NCBI GenBank assembly: GCA_029210645.1
Contig: JARGFT010000008.1
Location: 46,728 to 110,727 of the forward strand
From: Anaerosomatales bacterium
GTDB taxonomy: Bacteria > Actinomycetota > Coriobacteriia > Anaerosomatales > SLCP01
Direction of reading: 5' to 3'
DNA length: 64,000 nt
Shown here: positions 39,842 through 48,812 of the stretch, in pieces
How positions within the stretch are numbered: the first letter of the stretch is position 1
Layout: each line of letters begins with the position of its first letter
The notes under the pieces: generated by a model
Databases searched by the model: none
What the model was told of the DNA's origin: nothing
What the model saw: only the letters and a program-made list of their open reading frames with translations
Translations under genes and position numbers: made by a program

Positions 39842-39877
39842 TCGAGTTAGTGAGAACGATCGTTCCCGCTAACTCGA
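39842..39877. repeat. 36-bp interspersed palindromic repeat, copy 1
   Basis: TCGAGTTAGTGAGAACGATCGTTCCCGCTAACTCGA. Confidence 0.9.
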
Positions 39878-43819: not shown

Positions 43820-43855
43820 TCGAGTTAGTGAGAACGATCGTTCCCAGTAACTCGA
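43820..43855. repeat. 36-bp interspersed palindromic repeat, copy 2
   Basis: TCGAGTTAGTGAGAACGATCGTTCCCAGTAACTCGA. Confidence 0.9.
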
Positions 43856-43925: not shown

Positions 43926-44285
43926 ATGGCCAGACCACCGTATCCCGGCAAACTTCACTACTTCATCGGCAGTAGAACCCGGGCGCGTGTCATCGAGCGC
44001 CTCTTCTCGGGCTCACAGCCCGAGACGTACCTGCGCGAGCTCGGGCGTCACACCGGAGCTGGCCTCGGGGCCCTGCATCGCGAGGTGACCGAGCTCCGGC
44101 GCATGGGGCTGATCAGCACGCACGTCAGAGGGACGTCACGCTATTTCGTGCCGGATGCGACTCACCCGCTGTACGAGCCGCTCCGTGCGCTGGTCGAGGC
44201 CTGCGAGACCCAGGATCGCAGCGATCGCACCCCGCTACGCCCGGGGCTCCGACAGGGGGCGCATCGCCAGAGGGGCAGTGGGTAA
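43926..44285 (+). CDS. Winged-helix transcriptional regulator
   Basis: RARVIERLFSGSQPETYLRELGRHTGAGLGALHREVTELRRMGLISTHVRGTSRYFVPD. Confidence 0.75.
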   Translation: MARPPYPGKLHYFIGSRTRARVIERLFSGSQPETYLRELGRHTGAGLGALHREVTELRRMGLISTHVRGTSRYFVPDATHPLYEPLRALVEACETQDRSDRTPLRPGLRQGAHRQRGSG

Positions 44286-44409
44286 CGCCCGGGGGCGTTG
44301 GCTTTGGTCGAAACGGCGACCGTTCGGAGCCGCTAAACGGCACCAAAAAGCCGTTCGTCGCCCAATCAGTGACATTCGTCAGCATTTCGAACATTTCTCG
44401 GAAAAGTGC

Positions 44410-44438
44410 TTGCGCGCCCCCGAGAGGTCGGATAGAGT
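44410..44438 (+). promoter_or_regulatory. Sigma70-type promoter of the ncRNA candidate
   Basis: TTGCGC - 17 nt - TAGAGT. Confidence 0.65.
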
Positions 44439-44444
44439 CTGTCT

Positions 44445-44617
44445 TGTCCCGAGAGGTTGAACCGGGCGAGCCGCCAAAAGTAGCGTACCAGTAGCTGCCG
44501 GCGGAGCTTCAGAAGGGTTGGCCACGCGCGAGTGGGGTTGGTCCGGTCGGAGTTCCAAGGGTGTGAAACGGGAAGCTACGGAGTAGCGAGTCTCGCAGGG
44601 GGAGATTTCTCGGGACA
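44445..44617 (+). ncRNA. Candidate standalone structured RNA (~173 nt, family not recognised)
   Basis: Predicted TSS coincides with the first base of a perfect terminal stem TGTCCCGAGA (44445-44454) / TCTCGGGACA (44608-44617); internal hairpins GCTAC-GGA-GTAGC and CCAC-GCGCGA-GTGG; no convincing ORF. Confidence 0.6.
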
Positions 44618-44628
44618 CTTTTGTGTCC
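44613..44628. terminator. Hairpin between convergent transcripts
   Basis: GGACAC-TTTT-GTGTCC. Confidence 0.45.
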
Positions 44629-44635
44629 GGGGACC

Positions 44636-45571
44636 CTACAGCTCGCTCACCACATGCGCCACGGCAGCATCCAGATCGGCGTAGGCGTACTCGAATCCGG
44701 TCTGCCCGAGGGCGCGAGGCTCGGCGCGCTGGCTGTAGAGCATGTAGGGCGCGACCTCACCGAGAACCGCCCTGAGCGCCGGCCCGGGAACGGGGAGCCA
44801 CGAGGGTCGGCGCAGTGCCCGGCCGAGAGCCGCTGTCAGATCGCGCATCCTTACGGGCTCGGGTGCGCACGCGTTCACCGGGCCGGACACCTCAGCGGAT
44901 TCGATCGCGTGACGGTAGACCGCTGCGATGTCGTGGACGTGTATCCAGGTCGTCCACTGTCGTCCGCTGCCCACCGGCCCCCCGACAAAGAGTTTCATCG
45001 GGAGCGCAAGGCGGGGGACGAGTCCCTCTGTGCCCAGCACGAGTCCGGTGCGGACGCACACGACCCGGGTGCCGGTGATCCGCTCGGCCTCGCGTGCAGC
45101 GGCCTCCCATTCGCATGCCAGTATCGCGAGCCAGTCAGCGCCGGGATCGGAATCCTCATCGAGGACCTCCTCGCCGCGGTCGCCGTAGATGCCCACGCCC
45201 GACGCGCTCACGAGCACGCGCGAGCGATCGGGATGCGTCGTCGCGGCGTCGGCGAGGGCGCGCACGAGGGCGCGATTCGTGCCCACGCGGCTCTCCCGCA
45301 GCGCGTGCTTGACAGTGGCGTTCCACCGGCTCGCTATCGGATGCCCCGAAAGGTTGACCACCGCATCGGATGCGCCTACCTGCTCGGTCCACCCGCTTTC
45401 GGGCGCGCGGTGGTCGAACCGGACCTCCTCGAGCGCGTCGGGGTCGAACCCGAGCTCGCGTACCCTTCCCGGTCGCCGTGAGAGCCACACGACATCGTGA
45501 CCTGCTTCGATGAGCTGTCGCGTGAGCTCCCTGCCGATGAACCCGGTTCCCCCGGCGATGGCGATACGCAC
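44636..45571 (-). CDS. TIGR01777-type NAD-dependent epimerase / SDR oxidoreductase
   Basis: MRIAIAGGTGFIGRELTRQLIEAGHDVVWLSRRP. Confidence 0.92.
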   Translation of the reverse strand: MRIAIAGGTGFIGRELTRQLIEAGHDVVWLSRRPGRVRELGFDPDALEEVRFDHRAPESGWTEQVGASDAVVNLSGHPIASRWNATVKHALRESRVGTNRALVRALADAATTHPDRSRVLVSASGVGIYGDRGEEVLDEDSDPGADWLAILACEWEAAAREAERITGTRVVCVRTGLVLGTEGLVPRLALPMKLFVGGPVGSGRQWTTWIHVHDIAAVYRHAIESAEVSGPVNACAPEPVRMRDLTAALGRALRRPSWLPVPGPALRAVLGEVAPYMLYSQRAEPRALGQTGFEYAYADLDAAVAHVVSEL

Positions 45572-48776: not shown

Positions 48777-48812
48777 TCGAGTTAGTGAGAACGATCGTTC
48801 CCATTAACTCGA
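48777..48812. repeat. 36-bp interspersed palindromic repeat, copy 3
   Basis: TCGAGTTAGTGAGAACGATCGTTCCCATTAACTCGA. Confidence 0.9.

Follow-up and report, generated by a model that had tools for sequence, protein, structure and literature searches.

A predicted standalone structured RNA family of Anaerosomatales and the Aquicultor lineage, absent from Rfam

Closest described RNAs

Ms1, from mycobacteria and Streptomyces, and CoRP, from Corynebacterium, are RNAs that bind RNA polymerase (PMC9130861, PMC11077062), with lengths of about 300 nt and 516 nt, respectively (PMC11077062), and the Ms1 gene has a HAD hydrolase and an oxidoreductase as neighbours (PMC9130861). The RNA described here is like both of them in being standalone, structured, found in Actinomycetota and unrelated in sequence to Rfam 6S RNA. 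Regarding gene order, it is unlike Ms1, as the copy analysed here lies near gatB, the gene of a small putative regulator and an epimerase-family gene, and copies elsewhere lie near dtxR, queD and rnhA. With 6S RNA itself (RF00013) it shares the standalone gene, the length of about 180 nt, the closed-end rod and the strong promoter; however, it does not match the 6S covariance model and is without the large open bubble of 6S.

Locus and promoter

All coordinates are numbered along the window, meaning the whole 64,000-nt stretch of DNA that was analysed, and the structured RNA lies on its + strand. An earlier note on this DNA had set the RNA between a regulator gene and a convergent epimerase gene, and this setting holds, with the regulator-side frame of 119 aa ending at 44285 and the convergent epimerase-family gene, which carries the domains PF01370 and PF08338, ending at 44636. 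The promoter that it had read off, two hexamers separated by 17 nt, is present upstream of the RNA together with a third element, as listed:

44383-44404, + strand: A/T-rich upstream (UP-like) element, about -62 to -41
44410-44415, + strand: -35 element TTGCGC, with T, T and G in 92, 96 and 89% of 56 copies
44433-44438, + strand: -10 element TAGAGT after a 17-nt spacer, with T, A, G and T (positions 1, 2, 5 and 6) in 92, 92, 87 and 92% of 56 copies

The distance from the -35 and -10 elements to the RNA start is constant across the 56 copies of Anaerosomatales, where the UP-like block has an A+T fraction of 0.55 vs 0.37 farther upstream. The corresponding values in 19 distant copies are 0.87 and 0.63, and these copies carry a clearer TTGACA/TATAAT-like pair plus A/T tracts. 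A generic sigma-70 scan did not pick up the promoter. As read from the aligned copies, the RNA would be transcribed from a strong promoter of its own, of the housekeeping type, which is kept in nearly all copies and is thus conserved together with the RNA.

A dispersed palindrome of 36-40 bp, TCGAGTTAGTGAGAACGATCGTTCCCAGTAACTCGA, also occurs in the window, at 43820-43855 and 48777-48812, with a variant around 39842-39877. Its 28-bp core has 12 places in the host genome, with 0 for the reversed control, and it may be an operator or a repeat.

Secondary structure and its comparative support

The predicted overall shape is a rod, consisting of P1, P2, the GAAA/AGUA loop, P3, the GUACCAG/GAAACGGGAA loop, P4 and a variable GNRA arm, as follows:

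44445-44624, + strand: structured RNA of about 180 nt, with a deduced 3' end, supported by homologues, covariance models and covariation
44445-44458, + strand: closing stem P1, 5' strand, partner 44604-44617
44466-44474, + strand: stem P2, 5' strand, partner 44586-44596, from the predicted fold
44475-44479, + strand: internal loop 1, 5' side, consensus GAAA (here CAAAA), facing GGAGUA at 44580-44585
44480-44484, + strand: stem P3, 5' strand GUAGC, partner GCUAC 44575-44579
44485-44495, + strand: most conserved motif GUACCAGUAGC, facing GUGAAACGGGAA at 44563-44574 across a conserved internal loop
44496-44506, + strand: stem P4, 5' strand, partner 44553-44563
44507-44552, + strand: variable apical arm, ending in the GNRA-type tetraloop GCGA at 44528-44531
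44575-44579, + strand: stem P3, 3' strand GCUAC, partner GUAGC 44480-44484
44586-44596, + strand: stem P2, 3' strand, partner 44466-44474, from the predicted fold
44604-44617, + strand: closing stem P1, 3' strand, partner 44445-44458, with conserved G.U pairs inside
44618-44624, + strand: U-rich tract after P1, with a mean of 5.9 T in the 12 nt after GGGA in 75 copies

The fold of the window copy is no more stable than that of its shuffles (z = -0.62); since the window sequence alone makes a weak case, the comparative data (homologues, promoter conservation and covariation) decide, and they support the earlier proposal of a novel standalone structured RNA. Standard pairs make up 97.1% of the cells in an alignment of 45 copies from the order, with 94 double-change cells vs 27 in shuffled alignments and a covariation of 0.314 vs 0.176, and the pairing falls to about 48% when the partner is slid by one column. 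The phylum-wide set of 46 copies behaves in the same way (94.1% paired, 236 vs 80 double-change cells, covariation 0.526 vs 0.252). The shuffle controls ignore relatedness, for which the slid controls and the two-group swap test, joining the own 5' strand with the 3' strand of another copy, allow in part. By this swap test, P1, P3 and P4 pair better with their own 3' strand in 1998-2000 of the 2000 permutations, in the order and in the distant copies taken separately.

The predicted start, 44445, is the first base of P1, and the pairs from U44445-A44617 through A44454-U44608 form a perfect 10 bp, both as the earlier note had it. P1 continues beyond them with G.U, G.U, U-A and U.G pairs up to 44458/44604, reaching 14 pairs when the wobbles are included. 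Conservation of this terminal stem had been named beforehand as a test of the proposal, and homologues in which the stem covaries were found: among 46 sequences, 99.3% of its cells are paired and 6 of 13 pairs show double changes, and only 2 of 2000 swaps within the order are as good. Regarding P2, the swap test is clear in the distant copies (0/2000) and not significant within the order (140/2000), and the inner part of this stem is paired in 78% of cells (46 sequences). In the order set and the phylum set alike, each of the five P3 pairs has changes in both strands, with 94-96% pairing and no swap as good either within the order or in the distant copies (0/2000 each), and the outer part of P4 has double changes at 4/4 pairs in the order set (swap test 0/2000). 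The apical hairpin is 91% paired, with double changes (46 sequences), and a GNRA-like loop pattern closes the arm in 71/75 copies. An alternative 3' hairpin suggested by the alignment, GAGGU...ACCUC, was dropped, with 426/2000 and 751/2000 swaps as good.

Besides the stems, two internal loops are conserved. In internal loop 1, GAAA occurs in 53 of 75 copies and AGUA in 51, both being found together in 40, and this GAAA/AGUA arrangement may resemble a loop-E/bulged-G module. The loop of GUACCAGUAGC and GUGAAACGGGAA is pinned by an invariant CC-GG (44488-44489 with 44570-44571); its conserved form is GUACCAG(U)AGC/GAAACGGGAA, as seen in the conserved alignment columns. The spacings between motifs differ by steps other than multiples of 3, and the region is therefore not coding.

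The 3' end

A U-rich tract trails P1 in copies from all lineages, and for this reason P1 plus the tract is a probable terminator. The downstream hairpin GGACAC-UUUU-GUGUCC, which the earlier note had pointed out, is present at 44613-44628; however, it is not a conserved part, with a comparable partner in 18/75 copies, and it is mutually exclusive with P1, as it uses bases of the P1 3' strand.

A closing stem followed by a U-tract is terminator-like, as would be expected of a cis-acting leader or attenuator, and some distant RNAs sharing P1 do precede an aroF-like gene. However, the window's downstream neighbour is convergent, which excludes a leader role, and the same orientation is found at the ancestral locus described below, making this explanation very improbable.

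Distribution, paralogues and variants

BLASTN finds the RNA in 53/61 relatives, often in two copies, and a copy 99% identical to that of the window is present in a MAG named 'Coriobacteriia bacterium'. The covariance model R1 detects it in 66/69 genomes of Anaerosomatales, with zero matches outside this order in the other orders sampled among 301 genomes drawn from Coriobacteriia. When the phylum was searched with R1, the RNA was also seen in other classes of Actinomycetota, and R2, built from the phylum-wide alignment, finds it in 29/36 genomes of the class holding Ca. Aquicultor and genome G346. In both phylum searches, strong full-length matches are limited to Anaerosomatales and the Aquicultor lineage, the E-values of these home-made models being rough. 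Core-pattern matches outside Actinomycetota are partial, reach at most 22 bits with R1 and were taken as chance, and no viral contig with the core pattern was found in IMG/VR.

One flank of the ancestral copy holds feoB and the gene of a DtxR-type regulator; the other holds queD, rnhA, a gene for a CT398-like zinc ribbon and nif3, these four all convergent toward the RNA. The Aquicultor lineage has ubiD/ubiA or other genes instead of feoB/dtxR and retains rnhA, the zinc-ribbon gene and nif3, and low-scoring homologues of 140-184 nt occupy the ancestral place too. Of the two paralogues, the window carries the second, with the copies at non-ancestral places forming one tree group (support 85), and tandem copies exist in one family. 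As judged from these comparisons, the RNA is deeply conserved, with an old paralogy and a fixed ancestral locus.

Inverted terminal sequences, several copies and the tandem copies of one family could also be features of a mobile element similar to a MITE, its inverted termini being 13 bp long. The chromosomal place is, however, fixed across two classes, the promoter is conserved outside the termini, the copies fall into two old paralogue groups and P1 keeps G.U pairs, because of which it is not a DNA palindrome; taken together, a mobile element is hardly credible.

Variants of 90-184 nt retain P1 with a shortened or altered interior. Miniatures of 90-93 nt (L210:2499-2591, L213:2521-2610 and L212) consist of P1 and inner stems without the outer arm, and in three copies (L091, L092 and L093) the conserved loop has an additional hairpin inserted between its GAAA and its GGGAA. 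In the Actinomycetota family f44, RNAs of 121-163 nt (L202-L209) have the P1 sequence GUCCCAAGAAGUCGGA...GGUUUCUUGGGAC with a different interior and either follow pgk or precede an aroF-like gene; one of them gives a weak CsrC match (18.2 bits). Within the Aquicultor class, a conserved element of about 45 nt, CCCCC(C)ATGGTTAATAGAGGCACGGGTCTCGAGAACCCACTGGGGG, lies directly 3' of the RNA at L073, L074, L086, L083 and L077, and it matches no family of Rfam at the gathering score.

Comparison with known families

With Rfam release 15 as the reference for novelty, the RNA matches no family at the gathering score, nor down to E = 10, which answers the Rfam check that the earlier note had asked for. 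No paper tying structured RNAs to Anaerosomatales or Aquicultor was found in the open-licence literature. By covariation and model searches, the RNA is a standalone structured family absent from Rfam.

The likeness to 6S-type RNAs noted earlier stands as far as size and closed ends are concerned; an identity with 6S does not, as the Rfam 6S gene of the host is a separate one, lying elsewhere (RF00013, 48.9 bits against a cut-off of 46.4). A 6S match was also found in 53/61 relatives, 37 of them over the cut-off, and among the distant carriers 18/19 have a 6S that exceeds the cut-off. Thus, although the length, the closed ends, the rod-like fold, the standalone gene and the two copies per genome would fit either the 6S RNA of this lineage or an additional one, a distinct Rfam 6S gene in the same genomes shows that the RNA is not 6S, and RF00013 gives no match at the RNA locus even at E 10, leaving such an assignment very unlikely.

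The models of RNase P and tmRNA are likewise unmatched here, and the host has its own genes for both (contig C11:295572-295920 and contig C4:17815-18167, respectively). In the host, about 11 kb separate the RNase P gene and the ancestral copy, and in two distant genomes the RNase P RNA gene adjoins the RNA in divergent orientation (L074:2211-2652 and L086:3521-3978).

Y RNAs, which associate with Ro60, have a conserved closing stem, a variable interior and a U-rich 3' end. The structured RNA has these three features as well, but its closing stem is without a bulge, unlike that of Y RNAs. Ro60/TROVE (PF05731) was found in 0/31 genomes, with a positive control included, and the Y-RNA reading is ruled out because of this absence. 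Several GGA motifs are reminiscent of CsrB/CsrC; CsrA (PF02599), present in 3 of the 31 genomes, all distant carriers, is found neither in the host nor in any of the 16 Anaerosomatales genomes tested, and a CsrA sponge is ruled out since the host and its order have no CsrA.

Possible mode of action

Very probably, the family is a non-coding RNA that stands alone, acts in trans and measures about 180 nt. It would be transcribed from its own strong promoter, fold as a rod and end at P1 and the U-tract; it would presumably be abundant and could serve, in trans, as scaffold or decoy, binding a conserved protein machine via P1 and the conserved loops. The strong promoter, the closed rod, the conserved small internal loops and the dispensable outer arm suggest that the RNA is held by a protein.

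One candidate partner is a lineage-specific protein, with which the RNA would form a dedicated ribonucleoprotein; P1, the GAAA/AGUA loop, P3 and the GUACCAG/GAAACGGGAA loop would then be the putative binding site, with the outer arm dispensable. The concentration of conservation in P1 and the inner loops is consistent with this, as is the retention of P1 in the shorter or altered variants, whereas the co-occurrence tests of two protein families (Ro60/TROVE and CsrA) gave no partner; the proposal is a tentative one.

About as likely as a dedicated protein is RNA polymerase, which is our best guess among the known partners by analogy, because the Ms1 and CoRP RNAs of Actinomycetota bind it. The RNA would be an unrelated analogue of 6S, Ms1 and CoRP, binding the core enzyme or holoenzyme and storing or releasing it. 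Of these models, 6S RNA binds sigma-70 RNA polymerase and serves as template for pRNA, and Ms1 binds the core polymerase in the absence of sigma. RNAs of this kind have evolved more than once in Actinomycetota (Ms1: PMC9130861; CoRP: PMC11077062), and the rod shape and strong UP-like promoter would agree with such a function. It is weakened, however, by the presence of 6S in the same genomes, and the small internal loops are strongly conserved, without an open bubble, and the published Ms1 neighbours differ (PMC9130861), so that binding to RNA polymerase is possible but doubtful.

Biological significance

The chances are about even that the family represents a new class, namely an RNA that is abundant and housekeeping-like, was ancestrally present in at least two Actinomycetota classes and forms a ribonucleoprotein unlike those of 6S, Ms1, RNase P, tmRNA and SRP, with relatives in further lineages sharing only the closing stem.

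An RNA that almost all genomes of an order have kept and that extends to a second class, with a constant position and a strong promoter, likely matters to the cell, yet one so conserved is in no Rfam family. As Anaerosomatales is a cultivated order (PMC9686372), the RNA is open to direct testing. It may add to the RNAs of Actinomycetota that bind RNA polymerase, or it may belong to a new ribonucleoprotein.
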